This document shows positions 1 to 43,300 of a stretch of 64,000 bases of DNA, in pieces (within the stretch, counting starts at the first letter, position 1; the number at the start of each line of letters is the position of its first letter). The notes under the pieces are model-generated. The model worked only from the letters and a program-made list of their open reading frames with translations. It did no database searches and was not told where the DNA came from. Source of the stretch: Chrysomallon squamiferum (Eukaryota; Mollusca; Gastropoda; Neomphalida; Peltospiridae). The stretch covers positions 12,072,083 to 12,136,082 of the forward strand of contig CM022670.1 in NCBI GenBank assembly GCA_012295275.1, given 5' to 3'. The position numbers and the translations under genes were made by a program.

Positions 1-3000
1 AAACAAAGAAATATAACAGAAGTGATATACAAGAATAATAATAATTTAAAATTAAATAATAAATCTGTATATAAAATGAAAGGTCAAAAGAAATAAATTA
101 CATCTGATAAACATTCATGTTTTATATATATAAGACAGAATTTTAAATTTATTAAATATTGCATAATATTGGTTTGCTGGTCATTTTTTATCTTTCATAA
201 AAATATTCTGTTTTATATCTTTGATGCTGTATTGTAAATCTATATTTGTGGTAGAATTAGTTGCGTGTTTATGTTTAGATGAATTATTAATAATTTAAAA
301 AAGACTGTTTAATTTGTGAAATCTACAACCTTTTCTTCAGTTGCACGTTTTACAACATCCCGAGCTTTTTCCATCCAAATGTCCATGTCAAAGTTTCTAA
401 CTTGTCTTCCAAGACGTTTTGAATTCCTGGTTCAGTAGCTTCGAGAATTTCTTGTTTTATTTCTTCGTCATGGAATGTAACTGTAATTAGTCATCGTAAT
501 GCATTATGTATATGTGTTTGTTTATATATATATATATCATAAATACAAAATAAATAAATAGATAAATTATAGTAGATTCCTTTTCTTCCTTTTTTATAAC
601 AAAAAAATCAAATTAAAACAAAACAAAAAATTGTATAGCTATAAAACACAACTCAGACTATACAGTCCAAGAGTTTGTAACATCCATTTTCCTGTGGTTA
701 AGAAAAAAAAAAAAAAAAAAAATAATAATAATAATAAAAAATAAACAAAAAAAAAAATTAAATAAAATAAAATAAATAAATAAATAATAATACAAAGTAA
801 GGAGAAAGAGAACAAAAAATAACATTTCTAGAATTAAGTATAACACAATAACAACGATTATTACATTAACTGTAATGCCATGATAAAGTAAAAGAAGTAA
901 TAGACGACTTACCTGCTTTCATGTACATCATATACTGCTCAGCACAATTAAATCTGATGCCGTCGATTTCAAATTGAGCTGGATGATGCTGACTGAAAGG
1001 CGATTCTTTACCAAAAAACAAAATATATTCTTCTTTAACTTCAGATTTTTCACATTTTGTGTCCTCTTCATAAAGTTTATTTCGAACCTCTGTAATAATT
1101 TCTCCCAGCAGATTCTTTTCCATTCCATTTACTACGGTCTCTGGCTTCAGGCGCCTGTTTACTCAGACCAATGCCCCAGATGCAGTCATGAGGATTACAT
1201 TCCACAAAATGTTTGGGGTACGTTCTAAGTAATATTTTCTTTAGATGTGGATTTTGTGAAAACTGAAATCAAATACAGAAACAAAGAAATATAACAGAAG
1301 TGATATACAAGAATAATAATAATTTAAAATTAAATAATAAATCTGTATATAAAATGAAAGGTCAAAAGAAATAAATTACATCTGATAAACATTCATGTTT
1401 TATATATATAAGACAGAATTTTAAATTTATTAAATATTGCATAATATTGGTTTGCTGGTCATTTTTTATCTTTCATAAAAAATATTCTGTTTTATATCTT
1501 TGATGCTGTATTGTAAATCTATATTTGTGGTAGAATTAGTTGCGTGTTTATGTTTAGATGAATTATTAATAATTTAAAAGACTGTTTAATTTGTGAAATC
1601 TACAACCTTTTCTTCAGTTGCACGTTTTACAACATCCCGAGCTTTTTCCATCCAAATGTCCATGTCAAAGTTTCTAACTTGTCTTCCAAGACGTTTTTGA
1701 ATTCCTGGTTCAGTAGCTTCGAGAATTTCTTGTTTTATTTCTTCGTCATGGAATGTAACTGTAATTAGTCATCGTAATGCATTATGTATATGTGTTTGTT
1801 TATATATATATATATCATAAATACAAAATAAATAAATAGATAAATTATAGTAGATTCCTTTTCTTCCTTTTTATAACAAAATCAAATTAAAACAAAAACA
1901 AAAAAATTGTATAGCTATAAAACACAACTCAGACTATACAGTCGAAGAGTTTGTAACATCCATTTTCCTGTGGTTAAGAAAAAAAAAAAAAAAATAATAA
2001 TAATAATAATAATAATAAAAAGAAAAAAAAAAAAATTAAATAAAATTAAAATAAATAAATAAATAATAATACAAAGTAAGGAGAAAGAGAACAAAAAATA
2101 ACATTTCTAGAATTAAGTATAACACAATAACAACGATTATTACATTAACTGTAATGCCATGATAAAGTAAAAGAAGTAATAGACGACTTACCTGCTTTCA
2201 TGTACATCATATACTGCTCAGCACAATTAAATCTGATGCCGTCGATTTCAAATTGAGCTGGATGATGCTGACTGAAAGGCGATTCTTTACCAAAAACAAA
2301 ATATATTCTTCTTTAACTTCAGATTTTTCACATTTTGTGTCCTCTTCATAAAGTTTATTTCGAACCTCTGTAATAATTTCTCCCAGCAGATTCTTTCCAT
2401 TCCATTTACTACGGTCTCTGGCTTCAGGCGCCTGTTTACTCAGACCAATGCCCCAGATGCAGTCATGAGGATTACATTCCACAAAATGTTTGGGGTAATG
2501 TTTCAAGTAATATTTTCTTTTTTAGATGTGGATTTTATGAAAACTGAAATCAAATACAGAAACAAAGAAATATAACAGAAGTGATATACAAGAATAATAA
2601 TAATTTAAAATTAAATAATAAATCTGTATATAAAAATGAAAGGTCAAAAGAAATAAATTACATCTGATAAACATTCATGTTTTATATATATAAGACAGAA
2701 TTTTAAATTTATTAAATATTGCATAATATTGGTTTGTTGGTCATTTTTTATCTTTCATAAAAATATTCTGTTTTATATCTTTGATGCTGTATTGTAAATC
2801 TATATTTGTGGTAGAATTAGTTGCGTGTTTATGTTTAGATGAATTATTAATAATTTAAAAAGACTGTTTGATTTTGGTAAAATCTACAACCTTTTCTTCA
2901 GTTGCATGTTTTACAACATCCCGGACTTTTTCCATCCAAATGTCCTCATCGACGTTTCTAACTTTTCTTCCAAGACGTGTTTGATTTCTTGGTGTAGTAG

Positions 3001-4802
3001 CCTTAAGAATTTCTTGTTTGATTTCTTCATCGTGGAATGTAACTGTAATTAGTCATCGTAATGCATTATGTACACGTGTTTGTTGTATGTATATGTGTAT
3101 GTATTTATATGTATACATATAAACATATAATAAACAAAATAAATAAAGAGATAAATTATAATAGATTTCTTTTCTTCCTTTCTATTATAAAAAAATAATT
3201 AAAAAAATGGACTTGTATATAGTTATAAAACACGACTCCACCTATACAATCAAATAGTTTGTAACATCGATTTTCATGTTTGCCATACAGTTATCAAAAA
3301 AGAAATCAAGAAAACAAAAAAACCCGAAAAGAATAATAATAATAAATAAAAATAAATAAATAAACATAAATACATAAATAACTAAAATAATAATAATATA
3401 AAGTAAGAAGAACGTGAAGTAAAAATAAGATTTTTAGAATTAAGTATAACACAATAACAACGATTGTTACATTAACTGTAATGCCATGATAAAGTAAAAG
3501 AAGTAATAAACGATTTACCTGCTTTCATGTACATCATATATTGCCAAGCACAATTAAATTTGATGCCGTCGATTTCAAATTCAGCTGGATGATGCTGACT
3601 GAAAGGCGATTGATTACCAAAAAATAAAATATATTCTTCTTTAACTTCAGATTTTGAATGACCTTCAGACTCTGCTTTAGTTTCTGAATATAAATCCGTC
3701 TCTTCCAGGTTTTGCAATTTACTAGCTGCTGCTGAAAGAATTGGTTTCTGATTATGGTTATTTTTTTCACCCATCTGGTCCGATTTATTTTCCATTATTT
3801 CATATTTTCTTTCCTCATCATAAAGTTTATTTCGAACCTCTGTAATAATTTCTCCCAGCAGATTCTTTCCTTTCCATTTACTACGGTCTCTGGCTTTAGG
3901 TTCCGTTTTATTCAGACCAATGCCCCAGATGCAATCATGAGGATTACATTCCACAAATGGTTTGGGGTACGTTTCAAGTAATATTTTCTTTAGATGTGGA
4001 TTTTGTGAAAACTGAAATCAAATACAGAAACAAAGAAATATAACAGAAGTGATATACAATAATAATAATAATAATTTAAAATTAAATAATAAATCTGTAT
4101 ATGAAATGTCAAAAGAAATTAATTACATCTGATGAAGATTAATGTTTCATATATATATGAGACAGAATTTTAAATTCATTAAATATTGCATAATACTGGT
4201 TTACTGGTCATTTTTTTTCTTCTATAAAAATACTCTGTTTTATATCTTTGATGGTCACTGTTGTATTGTAAATATATATTTGTGCTACAATTAGTTGCGT
4301 GTTTATGTTTAGATGAATTATTAATAATTTAATAAGACTATTTAATTTGTAAAATCTACAACCTTTTCTTCAGTTGCTCGTTTTACAACATCCCGAGCTT
4401 TTTCCATCCAAATGTCCATGTCAAAGTTTCTAACTTGTCTTCCAAGACGTTTTTGAATTCCTGGTTCAGTAGCTTCGAGAATTTCTTGTTTTATTTCTTC
4501 GTCATGGAATGTAACTGTAATTAGTCATCGTAATGCATTATGTATATGTGTTTGTTTATATATATATATCATAAATAGAAAATAAATAAATAGATAAATT
4601 ATAGTAGATTCCTTTTCTTCCTTTTTATAACAAAATCAAATTAAAACAAAAACAAAAAAATTGTATAGCTATAAAACACAACTCAGACTATACAGTCCAA
4701 GAGTTTGTAACATCCATTTTCATGTGGTTAAGAAAAACAAAAAACAAATAATAATAATAATAATAATAATACGAAAAAAAAACAAATAAAATAAAATTAA
4801 AA

Positions 4803-4854
<52 letters not shown>

Positions 4855-7333
4855 AATACAAAGTAAGGTGAAAGAGAACAAAAAATAACATTTCTAGAAT
4901 TAAGTATAACACAATAACAACGATTGTTACATTAACTGTAATGCCATGATAAAGTAAAAGAAGTAATAGACGATTTACCTGCTTTCATGTACATCATATA
5001 CTGCTCAGCACAATTAAATCTGATGCCGTCGATTTCAAATTGAGCTGGATGATGCTGACTGAAAGGCGATTCTTTACCAAAAAACAAAATATATTCTTGT
5101 TTAACTTCAGATTTTTCACATTTTGTGTCCTCTTCATAAAGTTTATTTCGAACCTCTGTAATAATTTCTCCCAGCAGATTCTTTCCATTCCATTTACTAC
5201 GGTCTCTGGCTTCAGGCGCCTGTTTACTCAGACCAATGCCCCAGATGCAGTCATGAGGATTACATTCCACAAAATGTTTGGGGTACGTTCTAAGTAATAT
5301 TTTCTTTAGATGTGGATTTTGTGAAAACTGAAATCAAATACAGAAACAAAGAAATATAACAGAAGTGATATACAAGAATAATAATAATTTAAAATTAAAT
5401 AATAAATCTGTATATAAAATGAAAGGTCAAAAGAAATAAATTACATCTGATAAACATTCATGTTTTATATATATAAGACAGAATTTTAAATTTATTAAAT
5501 ATTGCATAATATTGGTTTGCTGGTCATTTTTTATCTTTCATAAAAATATTCTGTTTTATATCTTTGATGCTGTATTGGAAATCTATATTTGTGGTAGAAT
5601 TAGTTGCGTGTTTATGTTTAGATGAATTATTAATAATTTAAATAGACTGTTTAATTTGTGAAATCTACAACCTTTTCTTCAGTTGCACGTTTTACAACAT
5701 CCCGAGCTTTTTCCATCCAAATGTCCATGTCAAAGTTTCTAACTTGTCTTCCAAGACGTTTTTGAATTCCTGGTTCAGTAGCTTCGAGAATTTCTTGTTT
5801 TATTTCTTCGTCATGGAATGTAACTGTAATTAGTCATCGTAATGCATTATGTATATGTGTTTGTTTCTATATATATATCATAAATACAAAATAAATAAAT
5901 AGATAAATTATAATAGTTTCCTTTTCTTCCTTTTTATAACAAAATCAATTTAAAAAAAAAAAAAAAAAAATTTATAGCTATAAAACACAACTCAGACTAT
6001 ACATCCAAGAGTTTGTAACATCGATTTTCATGTGGTTAAGAAAAAAAAAAAAAAAAAAAAAAAAATAATAATAATAATAATAATAATAATAAGAAAAAAA
6101 AAAACAAATAAAATAAAATAAAAATAAATAAATAATAATACAAAGTAAGGAGAAAGAGAACAAAAAATAACATTTCTAGAATTAAGTATAACACAATAAC
6201 AACGATTATTACATTAACTGTAATGCCATGATAAAGTAAAAGAAGTAATAGACGACATACCTGCTTTCATGTACATCATATACTGCTCAGCACAATTAAA
6301 TCTGATGCCGTCGATTTCAAATTGAGCTGGATGATGTTGACTGAAAGGCGATTCTTTACCAAAAAACAAAATATATTCTTCTTTAACTTCAGATTTTTCA
6401 CATTTTGTGTCCTCTTCATAAAGTTTATTTCGAACCTCTGTAATAATTTCTCCCAGCAGATTCTTTCCATTCCATTTACTACGGTCTCTGGCTTCAGGCG
6501 CCTGTTTACTCAGACCAATGCCCCAGATGCAGTCATGAGGATTACATTCCACAAAATGTTTGGGGTACGTTCTAAAGTAATATTTTCTTTAGATGTGGAT
6601 TTTGTGAAAACTGAAATCAAATACAGAAACAAAGAAATATAACAGAAGTGATATACAAGAATAATAATAATTTAAAATTAAATAATAAATCTGTATATAA
6701 AATGAAAGGTCAAAAGAAATTAATTACATCTGATAAACATTCATGTTTTATATATATAAGACAGAATTTTAAATTTATTAAATATTGCATAATATTGGTT
6801 TGCTGGTCATTTTTTATCTTTCATAAAAATATTCTGTTTTATATCTTTGATGCTGTATTGTAAATCTATATTTGTGGTAGAATTAGTTGCGTGTTTATGT
6901 TTAGATGAATTATTAATAATTTAAAAAGACTGTTTAATTTGTGAAATCTACAACCTTTTCTTCAGTTGCACGTTTTACAACATCCCGAGCTTTTTTCTAT
7001 CCAAATGTCCATGTCAAAGTTTCTAACTTGTCTTCCAAGACGTTTTGAATTCCTGGTTCAGTAGCTTCGAGAATTTCTTGTTTTATTTCTTCGTCATGGA
7101 ATGTAACTGTAATTAGTCATCGTAATGCATTATGTATATGTGTTTGTTTCTATATATATATCATAAATACAAAATAAATAAATAGATAAATTATAATAGT
7201 TTCCTTTTCTTCCTTTTTATAACAAAATCAATTTAAAAAAAAAAAAAAAAAATTTATAGCTATAAAACACAACTCAGACTATACAGTCCAAGAGTTTGTA
7301 ACATCGATTTTCATGTGGTTAAGAAAAAAAAAA

Positions 7334-7365
<32 letters not shown>

Positions 7366-8593
7366 GAAAAAAAAAAACAAATAAAATAAAATAAAAATAA
7401 ATAAATAATAATACAAAGTAAGGAGAAAGAGAACAAAAAATAACATTTCTAGAACTAAGTATAACACAATAACAACGATTATTACATTAACTGTAATGCC
7501 ATGATAAAGTAAAAGAAGTAATAGACGACATACCTGCTTTCATGTACATCATATACTGCTCAGCACAATTAAATCTGATGCCGTCGATTTCAAATTGAGC
7601 TGGATGATGTTGACTGAAAGGCGATTCTTTACCAAAAAACAAAATATATTCTTGTTTAACTTCAGATTTTTCACATTTTGTGTCCTCTTCATAAAGTTTA
7701 TTTCGAACCTCTGTAATAATTTCTCCCAGCAGATTCTTTCCATTCCATTTACTACGGTCTCTGGCTTCAGGCGCCTGTTTACTCAGACCAATGCCCCAGA
7801 TGCAGTCATGAGGATTACATTCCACAAAATGTTTGGGGTACGTTCTAAGTAATATTTTCTTTAGATGTGGATTTTGTGAAAACTGAAATCAAATACAGAA
7901 ACAAAGAAATATAACAGAAGTGATATACAAGAATAATAATAATTTAAAATTAAATAATAAATCTGTATATAAAATGAAAGGTCAAAAGAAATTAATTACA
8001 TCTGATAAACATTCATGTTTTATATATATAAGACAGAATTTTAAATTTATTAAATATTGCATAATATTGGTTTGCTGGTCATTTTTATCTTTCATAAAAA
8101 TATTCTGTTTTATATCTTTGATGCTGTATTGTAAATCTATATTTGTGGTAGAATTAGTTGCGTGTTTATGTTTAGATGAATTATTAATAATTTAAAAAGA
8201 CTGTTTAATTTGTGAAATCTACAACCTTTTCTTCAGTTGCACGTTTTACAACATCCCGAGCTTTTTCCATCCAAATGTCCATGTCAAAGTTTCTAACTTG
8301 TCTTCCAAGACGTTTTTGAATTCCTGGTTCAGTAGCTTCGAGAATTTCTTGTTTTATTTCTTCGTCATGGAATGTAACTGTAATTAGTCATCGTAATGCA
8401 TTATGTATATGTGTTTGTTTCTATATATATATCATAAATACAAAATAAATAAATAGATAAATTATAATAGTTTCCTTTTCTTCCTTTTTATAACAAAATC
8501 AATTTAAAAAAAAAAAAAAAAAATTTATAGCTATAAAACACAACTCAGACTATACAGTCCAAGAGTTTGTAACATCGATTTTCATGTGGTTGG

Positions 8594-8628
<35 letters not shown>

Positions 8629-10392
8629 ATAATAATAATAAAAAAAAAAACAAACAAAATAAAATAAAATAAAAAATAAATAAATAATAATACAAAGTAA
8701 GGAGAAAGAGAACAAAAAATAACATTTCTAGAATTAAGTATAACACAATAACAACGATTATTACATTAACTGTAATGCCATGATAAAGTAAAAGAAGTAA
8801 TAGACGACATACCTGCTTTCATGTACATCATATACTGCTCAGCACAATTAAATCTGATGCCGTCGATTTCAAATTGAGCTGGATGATGTTGACTGAAAGG
8901 CGATTCTTTACCAAAAAACAAAATATATTCTTCTTTAACTTCAGATTTTTCACATTTTGTGTCCTCTTCATAAAGTTTATTTCGAACCTCTGTAATAATT
9001 TCTCCCAGCAGATTCTTTCCATTCCATTTACTACGGTCTCTGGCTTCAGGCGCCTGTTTACTCAGACCAATGCCCCAGATGCAGTCATGAGGATTACATT
9101 CCACAAAATGTTTGGGGTACGTTCTAAGTAATATTTTCTTTAGATGTGGATTTTGTGAAAACTGAAATCAAATACAGAAACAAAGAAATATAACAGAAGT
9201 GATATACAAGAATAATAATAATTTAAAATTAAATAATAAATCTGTATATAAAATGAAAGGTCAAAAGAAATAAATTACATCTGATAAACATTCATGTTTT
9301 ATATATATAAGACAGAATTTTAAATTTATTAAATATTGCATAATATTGGTTTGCTGGTCATTTTTATCTTTCATAAAAATATTCTGTTTTATATATTTGA
9401 TGCTGTATTGTAAATCTATATTTGTGGTAGAATTAGTTGCGTGTTTATGTTTAGATGAATTATTAATAATTTAAAAAGACTGTTTAATTTGTGAAATCTA
9501 CAACCTTTTCTTCAGTTGCACGTTTTACAACATCCCGAGCTTTTTCCATCCAAATGTCCATGTCAAAGTTTCTAACTTGTCTTCCAAGACGTTTTTGAAT
9601 TCCTGGTTCAGTAGCTTCGAGAATTTCTTGTTTTATTTCTTCGTCATGGAATGTAACTGTAATTAGTCATCGTAATGCATTATGTATATGTGTTTGTTTA
9701 TATATATATATCATAAATACAAAATAAATAAATAGATAAATTATAATAGTTTCCTTTTCTTCCTTTTTATAACAAAATCAAATTTAAAAAAAAAAAAAAA
9801 AAAATTTATAGCTATAAAACACAACTCAGACTATACAGTCCAAGAGTTTGTAACATCGATTTTCATGTGGTTAAGAAAAAAAAAAAAAAAAAAAAATAAA
9901 AAAAATAATAAAAAAAAAAAAAAAAAAATAAAATAAAATAAAAATAAATAAATAATAATAATACAAAGTAAGGAGAAAGAGAACAAAAAATAACATTTCA
10001 AGAATTAAGTATAACACAATAACAACGATTATTACATTAACTGTAATGCCATGATAAAGTAAAAGAAGCCATAGACGACTTATACCTGCTTTCATGTACA
10101 TCATATACTGCTCAGCACAATTAAATCTGATGCCGTCGATTTCAAATTGAGCTGGATGATGCTGACTGAAAGGCGATTCTTTACCAAAAAACAAAATATA
10201 TTCTTCTTTAACTTCAGATTTTGAATGGTCCTGGTTTTGTTTAGGATGATGTTTTGATTCGTCTGTGAACTCCGATTTTCTACGAGATATCGGTTTCTGG
10301 TTTTGGTTTCGGTTTCTGTTCGTATATTGATTATGACCCATGCAGTTATTTTCCTTTTTCTCACGGTTTGTGTTTTTTGGTACTGAATCCAT
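1..10392 (-). CDS. Poly-NADAR gene: tandem NADAR-domain protein, partial (continues past position 1)
   Basis: Seen: 16 minus-strand exons with GT-AG borders form a chain of NADAR domains. The order is start exon 10392-10086, then B8 9656-9505, A7 9161-8813, B7 8377-8226, A6 7882-7534, B6 7106-6955, A5 6610-6261, B5 5823-5672, A4 5327-4979, B4 4514-4363, A3 4011-3519, B3 3042-2891, A2 2543-2192, B2 1758-1607, A1 1262-913, B1 480-330. Each intact domain shows FFGKESPFSQ, then CAEQYMMY, then DIWMEK, then DCIWGIG and NLLGEII. Known: NADAR proteins include YbiA-type N-glycosidases of riboflavin-pathway intermediates and hydrolases that remove ADP-ribose from guanine bases. The conserved Glu, Trp and Asp of the family appear to be those in AEQY, DIW and HDCIWG (assignment from memory). 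Intact A+B is 501 nt, so reading frame is kept across units. B6, A5, A2, A1 and B1 carry frame lesions. Start codon is uncertain: ATG 10392 or 10341 is likely. Inference: a multi-domain cytosolic or nuclear enzyme acting on ADP-ribose-type substrates. Confidence 0.82.
330..480 (-). pseudogene. Poly-NADAR exon B1, middle of domain 8, one-base deletion
   Basis: 151 nt instead of 152. The plus-strand T run 417-420 is one base short, at the same place as in B6, shifting the frame at GIQKRLGRQ. It is followed by intron up to the window edge, with the next exon A just outside. Confidence 0.72.
913..1262 (-). pseudogene. Poly-NADAR exon A1, end of domain 7 and start of domain 8, one-base insertion
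   Basis: 350 nt. The plus-strand T run 1116-1119 has four bases where other copies have three, shifting the frame at the SKWNGKNLLG segment. Both halves are otherwise conserved. Confidence 0.72.
1607..1758 (-). CDS. Poly-NADAR exon B2, middle of domain 7, open
   Basis: 152 nt, matching the consensus B exon (FHDEEIK, RLGRQVRNF, DIWMEKARD). It lies downstream of the nonsense codon in A2, so it is translated only if that exon is bypassed or the stop is not real. Confidence 0.7.
2192..2543 (-). pseudogene. Poly-NADAR exon A2, end of domain 6 and start of domain 7, disrupted
   Basis: 352 nt with four differences in length or frame. The third codon is TAA (plus 2535-2537) where others have CAA. 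There are three extra bases in the T run near 2518-2523, one inserted base near 2497-2501, and one missing base in the A run 2292-2296 that breaks FFGKES. If spliced normally, translation ends at the third codon. It is the most damaged exon and the only one with a clear nonsense substitution. Confidence 0.75.
2891..3042 (-). CDS. Poly-NADAR exon B3, middle of domain 6, divergent but open
   Basis: 152 nt. Substitutions against consensus include ILKATTPRNQTRLGRK, NVDEDIW and VRDVVKHA. The Trp is retained. It forms the same domain as the AEQY-to-AWQY start in A3, so domain 6 keeps Trp but not Glu. Confidence 0.78.
3519..4011 (-). CDS. Poly-NADAR exon A3, divergent, with a 48-codon longer linker and Glu-to-Trp change
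   Basis: 493 nt, exactly 48 codons longer than the other A exons, open throughout. The C-terminal half keeps DCIWGIGLNK and NLLGEII. The linker then contains ENKSDQMGEKNNHNQKP and a Glu-rich segment before HSKSEVKEEY. The next domain begins FFGNQSPFSQ, and its NCAEQY site reads NCAWQY, so the conserved Glu is lost. The HSKSEVKEEY junction matches the start exon, suggesting the long linker is ancestral and the short one a deletion derivative. The domain beginning here may be catalytically dead. Confidence 0.82.
4363..4514 (-). CDS. Poly-NADAR exon B4, middle of domain 5, intact
   Basis: 152 nt and open. The exon matches the consensus, while the sequence after its donor is closer to that of the divergent unit, consistent with a recombination boundary near here. 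Confidence 0.78.
4979..5327 (-). CDS. Poly-NADAR exon A4, end of domain 4 and start of domain 5, intact
   Basis: 349 nt with all motifs (DCIWGIG, NLLGEII, FFGKESPF, AEQYMMY). It carries the SEVKQEY linker variant shared with A6. Its donor, gtaaatcg, is shared with A3. No lesion. Confidence 0.82.
5672..5823 (-). CDS. Poly-NADAR exon B5, middle of domain 4, intact
   Basis: 152 nt, phases 1 to 0, with FHDEEIK, RLGRQVRNF and DIWMEKARD. The five-T run that is short in B1 and B6 has its full length here. Confidence 0.8.
6261..6610 (-). pseudogene. Poly-NADAR exon A5, end of domain 3 and start of domain 4, one-base insertion
   Basis: 350 nt rather than 349: an extra A lies in the plus-strand run at 6574-6576. 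On the coding strand this turns CTT AGA into CTT TAG, a stop twelve codons after the acceptor. Downstream the exon is otherwise fully conserved (DCIWGIG, FFGKESPF, AEQYMMY). The lack of further decay suggests a very recent mutation or an assembly error. Confidence 0.72.
6955..7106 (-). pseudogene. Poly-NADAR exon B6, middle of domain 3, frame broken by two compensating indels
   Basis: Total length is still 152 nt, but a T run (417-420 equivalent) at 7043-7046 is one base short, and a T run at 6991-6996 is one base long with a nearby substitution. Between them the frame is shifted, covering the RLGRQVRN to DIW part, and an in-frame TAG is met just after the shifted Trp region. Splice sites are intact. 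This is either real decay or consensus error in homopolymers. Confidence 0.7.
7534..7882 (-). CDS. Poly-NADAR exon A6, end of domain 2 and start of domain 3, intact
   Basis: 349 nt with DCIWGIG, NLLGEII, FFGKESPF and AEQYMMY. The linker reads SEVKQEY instead of SEVKEEY, a variant shared only with exon A4. The codon pair around QHH shares a silent T with A5 and A7. The exon is therefore a mosaic of two variant groups. Confidence 0.82.
8226..8377 (-). CDS. Poly-NADAR exon B7, middle of domain 2, intact
   Basis: 152 nt, with coding content near-identical to B8 (FHDEEIK, RLGRQVRNF, DIWMEKARD, ATEEK). The donor is again gttgta. No frame lesion. Confidence 0.8.
8813..9161 (-). CDS. Poly-NADAR exon A7, end of domain 1 and start of domain 2, intact
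   Basis: 349 nt. The acceptor is followed by FSQNPHLKKILLRTYPKHF, DCIWGIGLSK, NLLGEIITEVR, the short linker YEEDTKCEKSEVKEEY, then FFGKESPFSQ and CAEQYMMYMKA. The domain boundary thus lies inside the exon. Donor gtatgtcg is shared with A5 and A6. No lesion seen. Confidence 0.82.
9505..9656 (-). CDS. Poly-NADAR exon B8, middle of domain 1, intact
   Basis: 152 nt, phase 1 to phase 0. Acceptor attacag, then codons for VTFHDEEIKQEILEATEP, RLGRQVRNF, DIWMEKARDVV and ATEEK. The donor after the last codon is gttgta, a weak GT donor used by all B exons. Its length equals that of exon 2 of the single-domain gene at 14802-14953. The Trp in DIW is likely an active-site residue of the family. Confidence 0.8.
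10086..10392 (-). CDS. Poly-NADAR gene, start exon (leader plus N-terminal part of domain 1)
   Basis: Begins with a polar, basic, Asn/Gln/Lys-rich leader (MDSVPKNTNREKKENN, then RNRNQNQKP), then the domain start KSEVKEEYILFFGKESPF and AEQYMMYMKA. It ends in phase 1 at GCAG with donor gtataagt, unlike the gtaagt or gtatgt donors of the internal A exons. It lacks the C-terminal domain half found at the front of every other A exon, which marks it as the true 5' end of the coding array. The frame is open upstream to 10470; ATG 10341 is an alternative start. No 5' untranslated exon was identified. Confidence 0.75.
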
Positions 10393-12048: not shown

Positions 12049-13820
12049 TCATTTATACACATCACACACTGAAATTCGACCGTTATTTTCACCTATCCAT
12101 AACTTCCCACGACTATCCATAGCAACTGCCGTCGGCGAAAATGCTAAAAGTTCGGGTAAAAAACTGCTTTTGAAACCCTCTGTCACCTGATACTGATGAA
12201 CGACATTCAAACCACAGTCAGCGATGAAGACGTCATCTTTCAAACCCCAGCAGACGTCGCGTGGATAAAATCCAATTCTGTGTTCCAAGTCTTCCCCTAT
12301 ATTGCAAGTGAACTCTGCTCCATCTGCTAAACAAATCTGTACAACTTTGTTAGTGGTATCTACCAAACACGTATCACCATTTTCTTTTTTATGAAACACT
12401 GGAACATTTTTGCCGGAAATCTGTAAGCCTTAGGAAGAGATAAATCATCACCAGAATCTGGCTTGAACTCGACCTGTTTTCTCACGTTTGATTCGCTCGT
12501 CTGGCAACTGGAACCTTCCCCGGTCAAAAGGGAGAGAAGTCCCTCCATTCTGACCTTATTGTACAGGTCTTTGTGTAGACTCATTCTTTTGGAGATGACT
12601 CCAGTTTCACTGACTAGATACACGTCATTATTTCGACACCCTTCGCTTTTACAGCCGATCCATGCACTGCTGGTGTTAGACAGAGGACCTATCAGGTCTA
12701 TCGAGTGACTGATACAGTGAAAGGTCGAAGTCGGTTTCAGGTGGTCAGAGTTCGATGCAACCACTTTACTTGCGAAAACAGTGGCTATGTTTGTGAAAAC
12801 GTTCATCCATTGTTTCGCAGCAGGATTTTTAATAAACATTTTTTCAATGGATGGCCTAGCTGCAGTATGGGCTTCTTTTTCGCATTTCACATCTTTCTGA
12901 AGCTTCTTTATTTCCGATGCCGCTGTCACAGTGTCAGCCTCAAGTCCATTGGATAAAGCCATAGTGACGTGGTAAATCTGGGCTTGCAAATTCTGTTTAT
13001 TTAATAATATTTCGTTCCACGATTCTCCGAGAGTTTCCAAGCAGGCTACTTCTCGTTGTACAATGTCGTCAATTCTGTTCAGTTCACTAGTACGGTAATC
13101 ATTAACTTCAGCAATAATACGATCAGCTAATTTGTTAATATCTGCGTGCATTTTTAACCTTTTGTTTTCCATGCTATTTTTTCTAGCGTCCATTATCCGA
13201 AGCTTAGTATCTAAACATTCTATGCAATGTTCTAAATGTACCTTCGTTTTCGTCAAATACGATTTTGCATCATTAACCAGGTCACAGAGATCTTCTGTTT
13301 TGTGTCCTTCGTGTGACGTCAGTTTGCAGTCTCGACATATTGGTTTCTCACACGGACGGCAATAAAATCTTACGATCTCTGCTTTATGTTTCATACAGAA
13401 CTGAGGTTTGCAAGTTATTTCACTTTCTTCACTCAGTCCACCCAATTTTATAATCGAGTGTGTTTTAAAAGCAGTCAGTGAATTATGATTGGCAGTGCAA
13501 GATTGACAGAGAAACTGCATACAGTCAAGACATTTTCTTGTTGCATGATTCGAACAAACATGACATGAAGTTTTCAAAGCTTCAGCACATGTATCACCGT
13601 CTCCCTCGATGTAAAAGTTTCTTTGAAACTCTTCGACTCCACCCTCGGGCACCTTGACCTCAGCTCTACAAATCGGACAGGAAAACCTTCCGTTTACCGC
13701 AGAATTTGATACATAATGTTTTAGACAATTACAACAAAATGTATGAAAACACGGAAGAAGTTTCGGAACTTTAAACTGCTCAATACATATTGTACAAGTT
13801 CTGTGATCTCTCATAGCCAT
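12049..13820 (-). CDS. TRIM-like RING, B-box, coiled-coil, beta-propeller protein; one apparent frameshift
   Basis: Seen: intronless. From ATG 13820, a C3HC4 RING finger occupies roughly residues 9-52 (CTICIEQF, CFHTFCCNC, CPIC). A first B-box (about 86-120, CHVCSNH, CMQFLCQSC) and a second (about 138-180, CMKHKAEI, CRPCEKPICRDC) follow. A coiled coil covers about residues 185-300. The C-terminal part has propeller-like blades (DVFIADCGLNVVHQYQV, GKLWIGENNGRISV). The first frame stops at 12360; the propeller continues in another frame to the stop at 12049. Joining needs one base at the plus-strand T5 run 12407-12411 (an A5 run on the coding strand). Known: TRIM proteins of this build are ubiquitin E3 ligases, much expanded in molluscs and often linked to innate immunity. 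The RING cysteines and histidine are intact. Alternatives are a young pseudogene or a sequencing error, the latter favoured by the undamaged propeller frame. Confidence 0.85.
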
Positions 13821-14277
13821 TGAAATGGGTCAAGTGCTTTATAATCAACTCCGTAATGTGAAACGTTTCCTTGCTAGTAATTCGGTTCAGTTGTGTAACA
13901 TCTCATTAGTTCGCCCTGTAAAATGTTCCGGGATAATTAACTTTTTAATATAACGTTTATATTTAACTTTTTTTGCAGGTTTCAGATTAAAGCAAAGTTA
14001 GTTATGTTAGATCTCTTCAAAATTTTCTACATTAAATTATGTAATGCATTTTATTCATTCTTATAATTATACTCGTGCTGAATTGCGTTTTAAATATACA
14101 TTTGTACACATTTTTTGATAAATGTTTATTTGGTTATCTCACATCTCCGACAATTTTGGTGTTTCTCGTTTTAGATGTTTTTCTTTATACAAAGATTAAA
14201 AACAATAATAAAAAGAACAAACAAATTTATCACATTTCTTTTCTTTTTCAAATTATATAATGTATGAGTGTGATAAA
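13821..14277. other. Spacer between the single-domain NADAR gene and the TRIM-like gene
   Basis: About 460 bp of AT-rich DNA. It should hold the 3' untranslated region of the NADAR gene and the promoter of the TRIM-like gene. No coding signal seen. Confidence 0.5.
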
Positions 14278-14543
14278 CTATGTAACTGCATGGGTCATGA
14301 GACCTTCTTCCATCATCAGGTCATTCCTTACTTCCGTTAAAATGTAACCAAGGAGATTTTGTCCTCGCCATGTACTTTCGTCCCAAGCGTAAGGATCATC
14401 TTCAACATAACCAATTCCCCATATAACGTCCACTGGACTCGCTTTTACTAATATTTTAGGAAATGTATCAAAGAGTAGCTTCTTTAAACTTTGATTCTGC
14501 GAAAACTGGAAAAAAAAAAAAGAACAAGAACACAGAAAAAAAA

Positions 14544-14590
<47 letters not shown>

Positions 14591-15059
14591 AACTATAGAT
14601 AGACACATTTAAGGGATACACACAGACAGATAGACAGAGAGATAGATGATAACAGTGAAATAATTATCTTTTTAGTAATGACATGTCGCATAATGCAGAC
14701 ACAGAGAGATACTTCATTATTTGATAAACTAGTCTCTGTTTGGAACGGGATATAGCTCAGTCGTCACACTGAAACAGAGTGATATTTCAACGGTTTCTTA
14801 CCTTCAGAATCGATGCTTCTCTAACAATCTGCTTGCACGAGCTGTCCCACATATCTTGGTTCCAGTTGCGAACTTTACGTCCTAAATATTTGTGCTCTTT
14901 GGGATCAGGGGACCAAAGAATTATTTTTGCAATCTCCGAATCTCTGAACAAAACTGTAACATCAGAAAAACTAATTCTATAATAATGAATTGGTCCAAGA
15001 ATTATTATCTATTTAAATTATATATATGTAATCTTACAGCAGGCTGGAAGAGAGAAATA

Positions 15060-15115
<56 letters not shown>

Positions 15116-15284
15116 TACCTGCCTTTTTGTACATCATATACTGTTCGGCGCACACATATTCGCGATTTCCATCTTTGAATTTAACCAGATATCCCTGACT
15201 AAACGGCGATTCTTCTTTCCAGAAATACTCGTATTTTGTTTTTGCTTCTGCTAAAGTTGTCTTAGATTCACATTCGGATTCCAT
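14278..15284 (-). CDS. Single-domain NADAR protein, three exons, complete
   Basis: Exons are 15284-15119, 14953-14802 and 14505-14278, with stop TAG at 14280-14278. The spliced product is 181 residues, a usual NADAR length. Exon 1 gives YFWKEESPFSQGY and CAEQYMMYKKA, ending in phase 1. Exon 2 (152 nt) gives LFRDSEIAKIILW, YLGRKVRNWN and DMWDSSCKQIV, ending in phase 0 with donor gtaaga. Exon 3 gives FSQNQSLKKLLF, DVIWGIGYVED and NLLGYILTEVR. The candidate Glu, Trp and Asp are all present. Intron positions and phases match the poly-NADAR array, so the two genes are paralogues. ATG 15284 (MESECESK) is preferred; the frame is open to an ATG at 15386. Probable role is hydrolysis of an ADP-ribose or N-glycosidic bond; the substrate cannot be read from sequence. 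Confidence 0.87.
14545..14588. repeat. Poly-A tract in intron 2 of the single-domain NADAR gene
   Basis: An uninterrupted A run of about 44 bases on the plus strand. On the coding strand it is a poly-T tract that lies upstream of the exon 3 acceptor and extends its polypyrimidine tract. Confidence 0.9.
15063..15112. repeat. (GA)n microsatellite next to a splice donor
   Basis: About 25 GA dinucleotides. On the coding strand it is a (CT)n tract starting about six bases inside intron 1 of the single-domain NADAR gene, right after the donor at 15118. Confidence 0.95.
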
Positions 15285-15386
15285 TTTTCGTCTGTTAGAT
15301 ATTTTCACCCTAAACACTGTTAATATATGAAGCCGAACATCAGTGTTTACATCCTCTCGTTTATTTAAACCTGGAGGGCTCTCCAA

Positions 15387-15765
15387 GGAAACATAATACG
15401 TATTGAGTGCTGTTTACAAAAATTATTACGTATTTCCTGGTTCCTTGCGAAAAATTTGCGGAAGTGCTTTTATATGCCCGGATCAAGAGGGTGCCCTTGG
15501 TTTATTGCTAACCCATACCGTTTTGGGACGGTTCTGATATTTGTTTCTTTTCCTTTCTTTTTTCGTTTTTTCTCTTTTTTCTTTATTCTTTCTTTCATTA
15601 AAAGAAAGAAAGAAAGAAAGAAAAATATAATTATATAATTTCATTTTGAATACTAATGAATGTATGTATTAAAGAGCAACAATCATGAAAAAAAATATTT
15701 TTCTTGGAACCCACGTATCAGATTTAAAATGTATATGAAGACTACAACATTTTGTATTGATTGTC

Positions 15766-16796: not shown

Positions 16797-19536
16797 ATGG
16801 CGGCTCGTCCTCTTGTAAATAATTTCGAAGTCCCTTCATGGTAAATATGTTATCTCTGAGCCATTTTTAATGCATATAAAGATAGCATTTATCTAAATAA
16901 AAGTAACAATAATACGATTTCTATGCTTGTTGTTCTAGACGTTTTAAGTTACTGGCTGAAGGAAATTGAAAGTGTGCTCTTGATTATGAGATTGTTGATA
17001 TCGACTACAGTTACTTTCCGTAAATTCCAGAACTTACCATTTTATGCAGTCACATTTTAGGTAGATTAATTATTAGAAAAAAATACAATAAAACCACGAC
17101 AGTATTTTAAACAGTTCAAATACCTGGATGGTTTTTAACTTTTTACGCTCATGACAGATGTGTTGGCCTTAATTATTTTTAAATGCATTATGATTATCAT
17201 GATTATGATTATAACGCTAATTAGGACTACAAGTATTACTTGAAATAACAACATGAATGTAAACATTAAAATTAAATGTAGACATAATGGTAATGTCATG
17301 GACAGACTAAAACATATCTTCAAATAGGAAATTAAAATGTGTTCTATCTTGTTTAGATTTACTTCTATCTGTGCTGTAACTATTTGATTACAATAAATGT
17401 TTACATGATGACGTTTTATGATTTATAATGTATTTTATTTATTTATTTATTTATTTTGTTGGTTTTAATTTAATGATTACTTTTGTTGCAGGGCTGGAAA
17501 GCCACCACCTGGTCTTCATTTAGATGTAATGAAAGATGGTAAAATGGTTCAGGTTTGTTCCACTGCTAGAATAAAACATATATATATTATTTTAATTGAA
17601 TAACAGTATTTAAAATTAATAAATCTTTTCCTATTTTCTATTTTGTTATTAAAAATACAAGTAAAATTGAAAAAGATATTAATATAACCATTCAAATGTT
17701 GCATTTAATCATGGGTTCATGTGGATATTTTATCAAGATAAGTTAGCCCATTTATGTTCACTTTTAAGCTAATATATCATTTGTGCAGACTGCTACCAGT
17801 CATCAGTTGAGCTTTATCAAATTACATAACAACATGCAGTTATTTCCCATTAGTTTTATAATAATCAGTATTCCTGAGAAACATATAAAAGATATAATAA
17901 TAGTTACCTCTTAATAATGATACTTATATTAAATTTATTTTTCTTTTTTCTCCCATCTTTATTTTATTTTATTTTTTCCAGAAATTAATGATCGATGAAA
18001 AAAAGTGCTATTTTTTTGGAAGGAATAAACAACTTTGTGACTTTTGTATTGACCATGCTTCATGTTCTCGTGTTCATGCTGCGTTAATGTGGCACAAAAG
18101 ACTTTCACGACCTTTTCTGATGGATCTTGGCAGCAGTGAGTTATACTTGTTATCATGTTTCCTAAGTTCTGAATCTGCTGTACTTGTTATCATGTTTTCT
18201 GAGTTCAAAATCTGTTGTACTTGTTTATGTTTTCTAAGTTCAAAATCTCTTATATTTGTTATGTTTTCGATGTTCAAAATCTCTTATATTTGATATGATT
18301 TTTTAAGTTCAAAATGTGTTATATTTATTATCATCGTTTTTTTAAAGTTCAAAATCTGTTATATTTGTTACCATGATTTTCTAAGTTCAAAATGTGTTAT
18401 ATTTATTATCATTGTTTTTTTTTAAGTTCAAAATCTGCTGGACCTGTTATCATGGTTTTTCCAGCTTCATAATCTGTTATATTTATTACCATAATCTTTT
18501 AAGTTCAAAATCTATTTCTCAAAGTAAGATAATTATCTCTGTGTTTTTTTGTTTTTTTTTTAATTCAGCACATGGCACATACCTTGGTCAGATAAGATTA
18601 GAGAAGAAAAAACCGCAGAATGTTCCCATAGACAGTGAAATTCATTTTGGTGCATCTACAAGAATATACATAATCAAAGAGAGACCACAGCCCATTGCAA
18701 ACCAACCTCTTGAAGATGGGAAGCGATCAGATGATCATGATGTCAGCTTATTGGGTTTGCCTGAGTCAGAAACTGAACTAGATGTAAGATTTAGGATTAT
18801 AGGATATATATATGTAGATATATAACTATAGTTGTTTTGAGGCAATTTTTCTTATAAATACATTAGAAGCAAACTGAACATGATTTATTGTTAATCACCT
18901 AAATAATATAATTTAATATGTTTTTAATGCCTTTTAACTACTTTATTTTTACCTGACTATTAATTGACATAGTACATATACAGGGTATACACTTGATTTT
19001 TTTCTTTTGACTGGTCAATTAGACCACTCACAAGAACACTTTGACTTGCCTGTAGCACTTTGAATTTGTTTTTCTTTAAATGGCACTTTAAAAATGTTAT
19101 AATGCTATAATAACAACATAAAAGAATGAACCAGAACTTGTTTTAGTTTTATTATAATATGTTGTAATACAAAATGTGGGACATTTCGGTCATCGGGGGT
19201 GGGGGGGACACACAAGATACTGTTTTGACTTTCCTGACACTGTTTTGATTTGCTGTATGTGTATATGTTGTTTTAGTTGAATAATTTTTGAAAATTTTAG
19301 AATCTAACAGAATTTAACACTGCACACAATCGACGGATAGCCTCACTTGTTGAGGTGGCTGATGTGCCCAATCCTCTCAAAAGAAAACATAAAAATGTTA
19401 GTGTGAGCTTCTTTGAAGAAGATGAAATTATCAATCCAGGTAAAATATTTTTATTTTTTCAGTCAGAGATTGTCACAGCATTTTAGAGACTTGGAGAATT
19501 TTGTTTTTTGAAATTGTTAAGTTTCCAAATCTGAAT

Positions 19537-19567
<31 letters not shown>

Positions 19568-19569
19568 TT

Positions 19570-19608
<39 letters not shown>

Positions 19609-20510
19609 TATACGTATATGTATATATATTTTTGGAATGTTTTAAGATTTTATAATTGTTTTAATTATAAAAAAGTATACCTTTTCAAAGGAAATTCTCT
19701 GAGATACAAACCTAGTAGCAAATAGGACCCAGATTGAAGAATGATTTTTTAGTTAATGGAATTTTTATTTATTTCAGAGGACATTGATCCAACAGTGGGC
19801 AGATTCAGAAATCTTGTCACCACAATGGTTATTCCAAAAAAGGTGAGTGGTTCTACACAGTATAAAAATATAGAGCAGGAGTTTAAAATTTTAAAATACA
19901 TAATCAGATAAAAAAAATGGTTTGATTACATTTTTTGTTTTTATTTTGATTATCCTTTTTCTCATTTGCTATATTATTAATTTTTTATTCTGATTCAAGT
20001 TATTTTTTGTGATATTTTTTGTTGAGAAAATCAGTATTACTAAAGACCTTAAAATTCTGAAAGCCAAAGTTTACTATTTTCTGTTTGCTTTCTAATTAAA
20101 TTAAATCATATTTAATGAAAATATTTGATACATTAATATACTGGCATTTTATTATTCAGAAACCAAAGCTGGATATAGGACCCCAACAATCAGGAAGTAT
20201 TACAGACATTATAACAAAACGGTTACAGAACTTTTCGTATGGAACACACTTATATGGAGACTTACCTGCAGCTGGGGGAACTGCTACCCCAGCTCTTGGA
20301 AGTACTTACAGTATTGCTGCTAAGCTTGGGCTGCCTGTACCGAATTTGGCTCCTGATTTGGAGCATGAAACAGTGGCACAACCTTTAGAAAAACCGCAGA
20401 TTATAGGATTCACAGCAGAGGAGCCATCAAAAGAACCAAAAAAGAAGAAATATGCCAAAGAGGCTTGGCCTGGGAAAAAGCCAATACATTCTCACAACTT
20501 GCTTGTTTAG
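16797..20510 (+). CDS. PPP1R8: Nuclear inhibitor of protein phosphatase 1 (NIPP1), seven exons, complete
   Basis: Exons are 16797-16840, 17492-17552, 17982-18135, 18569-18783, 19301-19439, 19778-19842 and 20160-20510. They sum to 1029 nt (342 codons plus stop), against 351 residues recalled for human NIPP1. All borders are GT-AG. An FHA domain lies near residues 48-115 (FFGRNKQLCDF, SCSRVHAAL, GSTHGTYLG). The central PP1-binding region reads VSVSFFEEDEIINP and VGRFRNLVTTMVIPKK, and the C-terminal domain contains ITKRLQNFSYGTHLYG. Known: NIPP1 is a nuclear scaffold that targets and restrains protein phosphatase 1 and binds phosphorylated splicing and chromatin factors through its FHA domain. 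The RVTF docking site recalled from vertebrates reads SVSF here. The start codon has a good context (acaacaATGG). Confidence 0.96.
18142..18520. repeat. Minisatellite in PPP1R8 intron 3
   Basis: About ten imperfect direct copies of a 35-45 bp unit built around taagttcaaaatctgttat and ttgttatcatg. The first copy begins within a few bases of the exon 3 donor at 18136. It is noncoding, and the open frames across it are incidental. Confidence 0.85.
19536..19630. repeat. (TA)n microsatellite tract in PPP1R8 intron 5
   Basis: Several TA runs interrupted by tg and ttttg, between exon 5 and exon 6. Confidence 0.9.
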
Positions 20511-33110: not shown

Positions 33111-36100
33111 ATGACGCTGGAGGAGGAGGACCAGTCAGAGAACACATCCCACCAAGTGGACACATCATTCACTGGAAAACCAATCATCCACCCATGTGTT
33201 GACCCGCCCTTGTGTGAGTCCTGCCAGCGACAAGAGCTATCTTTTTTCGATCCTAACTGCCCGGGGTGCAATGAGATTTTGCTCAATCCAAATACAAATG
33301 CCTCTGAAATCTTTGCCGTCCTTCGACAGTGGACCCCACAAACACAGCAAAACTTAGACCTTCTTGTTAATGAGGTATTTTTTAGTTGCTTGATCTACTT
33401 ACTAAATAAATATTTATTTTATTTGTTGTTTTGTTGATTTTGATTTGTTCTTTTCTCATTTTACTAATGACTAAAAATGTTAGACAAGTATAAATCTGAA
33501 ATAACATCTATTACAGATATTAAAACGTGGTGCAAACATCAACGACAGAGATGGACTCACTGACATGACATTATTACATTATGCCAGCAAAGCAGGGGCT
33601 GCTGGGATAGGTGATGCTGACTTAGCTGCCAGTGTTGCCAGTTCGCTCCTGTCCCAAGGAGCAGACGTGAACATCCGATGTCGGTGGACTCACATGACAG
33701 CACTCCACTACGCAGCCTATTTTGATGTTGTCCCTGTCATCAAAGTTTTACTTAAAGCTACCAAAGCTCTAGGTAAATGAACATTAAAAAAAAAATTCAC
33801 TTAAAGACATTTTAATTAGAAAACTTAAAGCAAACTGATAAGCAGTGGATTTTTACTTTAAAATGCTAAACTGATGAATAAAAAGTGTTAAAAAATTTCA
33901 TTTGAAAAAACAAAATGAAAGCTTTATGAAGTAACTTTTAGCATATTAGGTATCCTAACAGTATTTAAACAGACTTAGTAGTTGTTGACAGATAAAATCC
34001 TTAAATATTTTAAAGTTACTTTTATTTAACATTATAAAATAATTCCATTAACAATTATTTTCTGTTACTTTATATCCCTCTTTTCGTATGCAGTGTATAT
34101 AAAAATATATAATTTTTCTTCAGACATTGATTCAACGTGTTCTGAGTTTGACAATGGAACAGCTCTACACATAGCAGCGTCTAACCTTGCCCACGAAGCT
34201 GTCAAAGTTCTTCTACAAAATGGTGCTCATCCTTCTCTTAAAGACAGTCTGGATCGCACTCCTGCAGGTATACCAAGCATTATGTATTCTCACCTTTGAA
34301 ACTGGTCCAAATAAAAACCTATTTTAGCAGATTTATCATTATTTTTACAGATTTTGTATTAAAAACTAAAAAGAGAAATTATGTTTCTAATAAAATGTAA
34401 TGAAGTCTTAAAAGAGTTTGCTCTACATCCTGTTGTTTCCCTTTAAAATGGTGTTCATCCATTTGGAAGTGAAAAAGTTGTTTGAATTTGTTAGAGAAAT
34501 GTTGTAATGGCATATATTGTAATGTCATTAAAGTGGTTTGGGGGATTCAGACTTTTTAAAATGAGGATTGACACTAAAAAGAAAAGGTAGTTTTGAAAAT
34601 TTAGTTTCCTATGTAACTTTCCACAGGGCTTTTAACATATTAATATTCTATTTTTTTTTTTTCAGATTGTGTTCCGGATCCAAATAGTTTAGAACTTGGA
34701 AGTGACATGCAGAAACAAGTTTCTAAAATAAAGAAAACTCTTCAAGATGCAATTCCTCCTAGTCCAAAACAGCCACCGCCCAATTATGATTTAGTTCAAA
34801 GCAAAGTAACACTGCAGGCTCTGGGACTTAGCCTTGGAGATAAAATTGTTGTTGGAGGTTTGAAGGTAAATACTGTTTTTATTATTCTGTTATGTACACA
34901 TACCATGAAGTTTGATAGATAAATGATTTTTGTTTATGAATGGTATAACTATCTATTTGGATGGTAAAAATTTGTTATGAATGTTTTAATAATGTCATTT
35001 AACTTAGGTTTTAGGTTGTATTTAATTTGATATGTTAAAAGACTAGCAGAGTTGTGGAAGTTGTAATATTTTAAGGTTATATTTTATTCTAATTCTTAAT
35101 ATTCTTGTTAATATGTTGTATTTAAAATACCATGAGTTATGTGATCGTTCTCAGTTTGATATATTATATTATAGTTGTTCATTCTACCAGTAGTAGTACA
35201 ATGACTGTTATTACTATAATTTTAACAGACAGGGACACTGCAGTATTGTGGACCTACAGAGTTTGCTGGTGGTATCTGGGCTGGAATAGAGTTAGATGAA
35301 CCAGTAGGAAAGAACGATGGAAGTATTGGTGGTATCTCATATTTCAAGTGTCCTCCAAACTATGGTTTGTTTTTGTTCATGCATTATTATTTGCTTTTTT
35401 TATTTATTATTCCTCTTATTATTAGTATTAGTATTATTTATTACTGTTATTTATTGTATTATTATTATTATTCTTGCTATTTTCATTAACTGTTTTTGTT
35501 ATTTTTATTATTGTATTATCATTATTAGTTACTGTTAATATTAGCTCAGTTATTGTTGTGTGTGCTATGCCACAATATAATAATAATAATCATTATTATT
35601 TCTTTTTTAACGTTATTGTTGTTATTATTATTATTATTAGAATTATTATTGTAAGTCATTGTTAACATTGCTCAGTGATTGTTATGTGTTATATGACCTG
35701 AGATAGTTTTATTGTCTGCATTCTTTTGGCTAATTTTTTCTGTTTCATCCAATGTCCCAAAACTTTGTATTTGGTTTCCTAGTATTAGACAAGGGTTATC
35801 TCATACAAGTCAACATAGAATGTAAAATTATTTATTTGTCTAGCCGACTTAAAATAATTTTGAGATTAAAATGTTTTGATGGGATGTGAAGTAAATAAAT
35901 ACTCATTTTGATTCTAGGTATTTTTGCACCTGTTAGTAAAATTAGCAAACTGGGAATGATGACAACTAGAATATCACCTGCATCACCTGTCAGGCCAGTG
36001 GTCAAGAATATTGATGTGTCCCACGTCACAGCCAAAGTTGATACAGGTCAGTTTGAAATACATTATTTCTGTTTGCTTTGCTGGATTTCTTCGTGGGTTT

Positions 36101-42100: not shown

Positions 42101-43265
42101 GTTCAATTTTTGCTTGTCTAAAATATAAACAAGTGTCATTACATTTTAGATTACTTTGATTTGATAAAACATTTACTAAATTAAGATTGGAATCAAAACC
42201 ATTCATATAATGGTTTTATTTCATGAAGTAATTTGTATGTTGTACATCATAAAAATGAAAACAGTAACATCATTATTTAGAATAATCCAAAAATACATAA
42301 ATATTTATAATTAAATTGGGTAATGAACGTATAAACTTGACCGATTGTATGGAAAACAAAAAATGTATTCCACAATTCTCCATAGTTGTTGTCACTAGTA
42401 TAAAATAAAGAGAAACTTTAAAATATTGCAACAAAATTACAAAAACCAACAGAATTAGGATTACTTTTTAAGATAGTTTTGTGTCTGGATCTTGAAAAAA
42501 AAAAAAAAGTTAAAAAGTTAAAATCATGTCTGTAACAAACAGAATTTGTGTTCTTGAAATGAGTATTTTTGAATTGTTATATTTGTTATTTTTCATTGTG
42601 TGGATATCATTCCAGTGGGGGGGAACTTAAGAAAAAAAATTTAATAAAAGTGTTGAAAGTTCTGTATTTTATTTTGTATAATTAATTTTCATTAGGTATA
42701 AATACAACTAAAAATATTTATGTTTGAGGTTGTTGGTCATGACATTGTAAAATGCTAGTAATTATCCCACCATAACACATGGAAGAAATAAAACAATATT
42801 AAAATATCTACTAAAATTACAATTTTCCTGTTTTATTGATAGAACATTTTTTTTTTTTTTTTGTAACCTGCAAAACATTTGCTACATACAAAAGAAGGGA
42901 CACTTTGTTTAACAAAATTTTAAATATTAACAATTAACTAATTCTATAAACAAAATATAATACAATAGAAAAAACACTCTGTTAGCATATGTTGAGTTAA
43001 TTCATTAAATGTGTCAGATTGATGTCACCTGTTACTTTGTTGTCAGTTTGTATAGAAAAACTCACATTTTTACATCTACTAACCATTTAAAGTTTGTGTT
43101 AAAAAACCATTCTTTTTATGGATTAGAATTGCAGTAACAATATGTTTTACAATAATGGTGTCATGAAAAAGCAAATCTTGCTTGTTGTAAGCTTACAACA
43201 TTATTAGCTTTAATCCTTAAAATAAACAAGACCTTTAGGAAAGCCATTTGTCAAACTCTAAAAAA

Positions 43266-43300
<35 letters not shown>

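Follow-up and report, generated by a model that had tools for sequence, protein, structure and literature searches.

A tandem-amplified gene with at least 15 NADAR units, a candidate multivalent ADP-ribose hydrolase, in the gastropod Chrysomallon squamiferum

Introduction

NADARs take ADP-ribose off guanine in DNA or RNA, according to excerpts of three studies (PMC11543638, PMC11125620, PMC11833690), and the excerpt of the first describes removal from guanine by several kinds, the oomycete one included. The YbiA subfamily is defined by a glutamate at the position of E125 in the Phytophthora nicotianae protein (PMC11543638). The role of NADARs in animals is stated as open in the available part of PMC11125620. 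A described animal protein of this kind is SNA-3 of Caenorhabditis elegans, which has three NADAR domains, one of them without key residues. It is reported to be nematode-specific and to take part in spliced-leader trans-splicing; according to the excerpts of the source (PMC9303266), each domain is conserved separately and no homologue exists outside nematodes. Concatenation of a single domain in an animal chain is also known from the globin of Artemia, where excerpts of PMC1865544 describe nine domains joined by linkers of ~14 residues. In the open-licence PMC literature, as far as its texts were accessible, no animal NADAR chain longer than the three domains of SNA-3 was found among the matches listed. 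Nothing on point was found among the matches listed for NADAR with molluscs or with tandem duplication, and the combination of 'NADAR domain' and 'Haliotis' gave no match in the open-licence PMC literature.

Here we describe a NADAR gene of the gastropod Chrysomallon squamiferum (assembly GCA_012295275.1) that enters a window of 64,000 nucleotides (contig CM022670.1, here C6:12072083-12136082), together with its relatives, its neighbours and the explanations that compete for it. Like SNA-3, it places several NADAR domains in one predicted animal protein, but its units are near-identical. It resembles E. coli YbiA (2b3w) and the P. nicotianae NADAR (8bau) in sequence and active site, including the YbiA-type glutamate, whereas both of these are single domains. 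The Artemia globin domain is unrelated and its chain is known as a protein, whereas the NADAR chain is known from its gene alone.

Results

Exon structure of the array

Positions 1-10392 of the window, whose base composition is 27.8% G+C, are occupied by a head-to-tail array on the minus strand with a period of ~1.28 kb. Each period holds two exons, B (152 nt) and A (349 nt, or 493 nt in A6), and the start exon A1 and seven fused A exons (A2-A8) alternate with eight B exons (Table 1). An earlier sequence-only reading had described eight A/B pairs plus a distinct start exon; the eight pairs are present, and the start exon is itself the first A. Its proposal that the exons lie on one strand with borders and phases that allow continuous splicing is confirmed, as all borders are GT/AG, the A exons lead from phase 0 to 1 and the B exons from 1 to 0. 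The A-B-A-B order therefore keeps phase, and the B+A module is phase-symmetric. Exon skipping was considered and ruled out, since loss of an A or of a B exon breaks phase.

Every fused A exon bridges two NADAR domains, giving the first its C-terminal half and the second its N-terminal half. In the fused exons that are intact and have the short linker, the domain junction contains no stop and no ATG, and the chance of an open exon of 116 codons is ~4e-5 at the base composition of the window. The evidence is good for a single chain gene and against separate genes in a row: the intact short-linker fused exons stay open between domains, and beyond the window the array ends in a terminal exon that carries a stop. 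Independent single-domain genes, named in the sequence-only reading as the outcome that would speak against it, are ruled out by these same junctions.

Table 1. Exons of the NADAR array and related or neighbouring features (window positions, or contig positions where preceded by C6)
Feature	Position	Strand	State or remark
A1, start exon: ATG, N-terminal peptide, N-half of domain 1	10086..10392	-	intact
B1, middle of domain 1	9505..9656	-	intact
A2, fused: C-half of domain 1, short linker, N-half of domain 2	8813..9161	-	intact
B2	8226..8377	-	intact
A3, fused exon	7534..7882	-	intact
B3	6955..7106	-	frame-broken; first in-frame stop of assembled reading (codon 473)
A4, fused exon	6261..6610	-	frame-broken, one-base indel
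B4	5672..5823	-	intact
A5, fused exon	4979..5327	-	intact
B5	4363..4514	-	intact
A6, fused, long linker, divergent	3519..4011	-	intact; N-half of domain 6 with active-site E43 to W
B6, divergent	2891..3042	-	intact; K75 to T
A7, fused exon	2192..2543	-	broken: point-mutation stop and indels
B7	1607..1758	-	intact
A8, fused exon	913..1262	-	frame-broken, one-base indel
B8	330..480	-	frame-broken, one-base indel
Intron after B8	1..329	-	cut by the 2500-N run ending right before window base 1
7 more fused A exons, 7 B exons, terminal exon with stop	C6:12060126-12069501	-	beyond the gap
Single-domain siblings (three)	start exons ending at C6:12058746, 12048701, 12042942
Two-domain sibling	about C6:12050.1-12054.2 kb		fused exon frame-broken
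TRIM-like gene (RING and B-box by Pfam)	12049-13829	-	between chain and separate NADAR gene
Separate divergent single-domain NADAR gene, three exons	14278..15413	-	open frames, same two intron positions, strong donors

Extent of the gene and number of units

The array continues past the left edge of the window, where we examined C6:12030001-12073000. Exactly 2500 N stand inside it, directly before window base 1; we take them to be, with some reserve, an assembly gap. The N run is preceded by 65 bases that are the same as the first 65 bases of the window, so that any units missing in a gap would form a whole number, which may be zero. Past the N run the gene goes on for 9.5 kb, and the stop of its terminal exon ends at C6:12060126. 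As assembled, the whole gene comprises 31 exons and 15 units (7996 nt, about 2665 codons); between its start codon and its stop, B exons, N-halves and C-halves number 15 each. Further units may be hidden in the gap, and the lengths of the two arms from start or stop codon to gap (10392 and 9457 bp) suggest, by inference, that reads were unable to cross a longer array. The sequence-only reading had missed both this continuation past the 2500 N and the frame breaks in 5 of the 16 window exons. Its chain of at least eight NADAR domains stands as far as the fused exons and the 15 units up to the stop are concerned, but not as a continuous open frame.

All 40 NADAR matches in the genome (404.6 Mb, 22 contigs; 59 of 59 candidates scored) lie within C6:12041585-12087036. 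Among the 13 units compared, identity is 97.0-99.8%, apart from U5 and U6, where the divergent block lies. Elsewhere in the genome, 14 B exons and the 1280-bp unit have only low-complexity matches. A dispersed repeat was rejected: outside C6:12.04-12.09 Mb, the 1280-bp unit matches only short low-complexity stretches among the matches listed (39 of 114 candidates scored), nearly all of them in its AT-rich run. A single region assembled twice was also rejected, as the identity matrix of 13 units, with the unit across the gap left out, has no constant offset.

NADAR identity and active site

The profile search proposed by the sequence-only reading bears out the NADAR assignment. When A1-A3, B1 and B2 are read as spliced, Pfam NADAR (PF08719) scores 336.8 bits (cut-off 35.1) in two stretches on the first 436 residues, and sequence matches were found to 8bau (E 6.1e-22) and 2b3w (E 1.1e-10). 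Residues are numbered as in PMC11543638 and were placed on the units by way of the 8bau alignment; with broken exons read piecewise, 13 of the 15 units keep E43, K50, K75, R79, W89, E125, D130 and W133. Only D6, with E43>W plus K75>T, and D15, with K75>T plus R79>S, deviate. All 15 units have glutamate at the P. nicotianae E125 position, as in the YbiA subfamily, and aspartate in its place, a trait of DarT-linked NADARs, is absent from all 15. A predicted eraser fits the kept active site, whereas the reader that the sequence-only reading had offered as an alternative would fit D6 and D15 at most. The E43>W change of D6 (A6, 3519-4011) recurs in domain 1 of the two-domain sibling (C6:12053893-12054025), which hints at a common variant that was kept.

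A two-domain relative from Branchiostoma, P0003, models as two confident NADAR domains (mean pLDDT 87.9, pTM 0.49) with a predicted flexible linker between them (residues 172-180, pLDDT under 50). The model matches 8bau (E 1.4e-10) and 2b3w (E 9.6e-8), and the fold search gave the NADAR fold only.

Relatives with several NADAR domains

Among 192 NADAR proteins (the best 120 of 1295, plus 72 from the 7998 candidates sharing most words), found by searches that cover only 0.55-1.75x the query length, 170 have one domain, 15 have two, 4 have three and 2 have four (Patella). The profile gave six pieces in the remaining protein, P0126, which we read as three domains. Like the chain, proteins of Haliotis (P0001, P0121), Patella (P0122), Mercenaria (P0124) and Branchiostoma (P0002, P0003) repeat NADAR within one animal protein, and the repeats within Haliotis P0121 and within Branchiostoma are closely related, as they are here. 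These mollusc and lancelet proteins have 2-4 domains against at least 15 units in the chain, a comparison made between proteins and not between exon structures. A poly-NADAR protein in an animal, called unusual in the sequence-only reading, is less so given the three domains of SNA-3 in excerpts of PMC9303266 and the two to four in Haliotis, Patella, clam and Branchiostoma, but by predicted count 15 or more units are well beyond the four domains at most of the relatives found. Some domains in the multi-NADAR relatives are degenerate. One two-domain protein, P0008, whose domains look nearly identical, belongs to a cluster of 372 member sequences. In a tree of chosen domains (45 rows) the window units group together (100/98), and the domains of several relatives cluster by their own genus or protein, so amplification of NADAR has probably recurred.

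Integrity of the reading frame

Eleven of the 16 window exons are intact, with A4, A7, A8, B3 and B8 frame-broken; over the whole gene, 23 of 31 exons are intact, the terminal exon included, and 8 are broken (also A9, A14 and B11, the last at 153 nt). A continuous open frame through all units is not found in the gene as assembled, and its first stop (codon 473, in B3) comes after two complete domains. Most breaks are one-base homopolymer indels, which fits consensus error but is not proof of it. Counted over near-identical exons (A6, A15, B6 and B15 left out beforehand), there are 11 indel events, 8 of them in runs of at least 3, against substitutions at 9 sites (7 in A and 2 in B exons). B3 and B8 share the same A-run deletion though their units are not nearest kin; together with the excess of indels, this is as expected if homopolymers were miscalled in the consensus of a repeat that resists polishing. 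The TRIM-like gene nearby likewise seems to have one frameshift.

Other observations speak against consensus error: the stop in A7 is a point mutation, indel density in the window is about equal in exons (8 in 3162 bases) and in intron b (7 in 2394), and the NIPP1 exons matched in the window have no visible frame break. One of 17 sibling exons is broken compared with 8 of 31 in the chain, which is not significantly fewer (Fisher p 0.13). Substitutions number 11 in exons and 8 in intron b, a constraint test that is underpowered on near-identical copies. The divergent unit A6/B6 has a dN/dS ratio of 0.51. Comparisons among chain units, D15 and the single-domain siblings give 0.38-1.04, with pairs of almost no difference and the two-domain sibling, whose first part reads out of frame, left out; such estimates indicate fast change and weak constraint. 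We regard the evidence on consensus error versus decay as balanced.

Splice donors

Within the cluster, counted without the gene at 14278-15413, each of the 20 B exons ends in AAG|GTTGTAG or, once, in AAG|GTTATAG (pattern allowing one error). Scored against splice-site frequencies, AAG|GTTGTA is a weak B donor at 38 of 100, the A1 donor reaches 54, and the B donor of the separate gene at 14278-15413 reaches 90. The weak B donor is common to every sibling. Retention of intron b would stop the chain soon after each B exon. An alternative donor three bases downstream was rejected on its lower score (27 versus 38).

Sibling genes and neighbours

Left of the array lie four sibling NADAR genes, three with one domain and one with two. 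They share the introns and a common start peptide with the chain, and their last exons resemble the terminal exon of the array. The fused exon of the two-domain sibling (C6:12051991-12052339) has a chain-like short linker and is broken by frame changes. The siblings, start peptides and last exons suggest a single-gene origin followed by fusion and spread. In the order that we propose, single-domain three-exon genes would have duplicated, and the last exon of one copy would then have fused with the start exon of the next, giving the long linker kept in A6 and A15. An internal deletion would have shortened the linker, and unequal crossing-over or conversion would have spread the 1.28-kb unit.

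On the other side of the chain, the separate NADAR gene has lysine in place of the YbiA-type glutamate (E125 to K). The TRIM-like gene next to it has two overlapping frames, apparently through one frameshift near 12.4 kb. The plus strand carries, at 17493-20507, 33505-47711 and 61322-61600, NIPP1/PPP1R8, ankyrin and CAP-Gly (CLIP-like), and DOCK C2 exons, which belong to ordinary, conserved genes. In a tree with 31 chosen relatives, the NIPP1 of the window groups with Haliotis (99/90; 78% identity over 235 columns), which we read as the position of a vetigastropod-like gastropod.

Discussion

We consider it somewhat probable that this locus is a tandem-amplified gastropod gene of at least 15 NADAR units whose predicted product is a multivalent YbiA-type hydrolase of guanine-linked ADP-ribose. 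The kept active site, the reported NADAR activities and the ADP-ribosylation context make a multivalent guanine-ADP-ribose eraser our best guess. We infer that the chain is transcribed, translated in full length and active in such a role. Should consensus errors account for most of the frame breaks, the product would have about 2660 residues with short charged linkers, and would strip ADP-ribose from guanine in DNA or RNA. Its most plausible targets would be the products of guanine-ADP-ribosylating enzymes of microbes, of viruses or of the animal itself. Counting against this explanation are the eight broken exons with the early stop, the point mutation in A7, the weak B donor, an exon indel density close to that of intron b and the weak constraint seen in dN/dS.

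The strongest competitor, which we hold to be rather unlikely, is that the array is real but decaying DNA in which translation covers no more than the first two or three domains, while the units downstream are a relic, free to expand and to break as a satellite does, with exons in it by chance. The early stop in the assembled reading, the eight broken exons, the point-mutation stop in A7, an exon indel density similar to that of intron b and the weak B donor would all be expected of such a relic. Yet 23 exons are intact, the last one and its stop among them, the indel events outnumber the substitution sites and fall mostly in runs of at least 3, more as in consensus error, and the weak donor is found in the intact single-domain siblings as well. 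The assembly could instead inflate or distort the unit number, so that the true gene has only a few domains. The N run inside the array, its edges with 65 identical bases and units up to 99.8% alike lend themselves to that explanation, but we think it highly improbable: the near-perfect matches between the arms lack the constant offset of one region assembled twice, and unit-specific variants, two long-linker units and differing A donors mark many units as distinct. Both arms also end about 10 kb from unique flanks, which would suit too many units to cross and not too few.

Should the chain be made as a protein, it could mainly bind ADP-ribose adducts without hydrolysis, or be a polyprotein that is cut into single domains. 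The altered residues of D6 and D15, the recurrence of E43>W in the two-domain sibling and the degenerate domains of some multi-NADAR relatives are compatible with binding, and in their near-identity the units are like polyprotein repeats. All eight checked residues are nevertheless kept in 13 of the 15 units and the short linker has no cleavage motif evident by eye, and we find either outcome improbable.

For the multivalent eraser, the surroundings offer circumstantial hints of conflict or defence. Excerpts of PMC11209040 report a guanine-N2 ADP-ribosylating activity on DNA from six edible clam species, and NADARs are present in bivalve picornaviruses and other viruses in the available part of PMC9503650. 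This genome, the only mollusc considered here, has 60 PARP-domain and 48 macrodomain matches, both counted as exon pieces. Of the PARP-domain matches, 25 cluster at C10:15279415-17434106. A role of the chain in conflict or defence may be proposed on these grounds. Against the eraser reading counts that DarT, a known partner of some NADARs, had no match in the genome (3 of 3 candidates scored; control positive in 1 of 14 genomes).

We put forward only tentatively, as a possibility that we would not yet call probable, a fuller picture in which one snail protein would carry at least 15 near-identical, mostly catalytically competent NADAR domains, their number varying between individuals by unequal crossing-over, and would serve as a tunable multivalent eraser of guanine ADP-ribosylation in a genome with clustered PARP-domain matches. 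Single-domain, two-domain and fifteen-unit versions at one locus would allow domain number to be tested against activity, avidity and dose. If the proposal is true, it would also point to guanine ADP-ribosylation as pressing hard enough on a mollusc for an eraser to be amplified.
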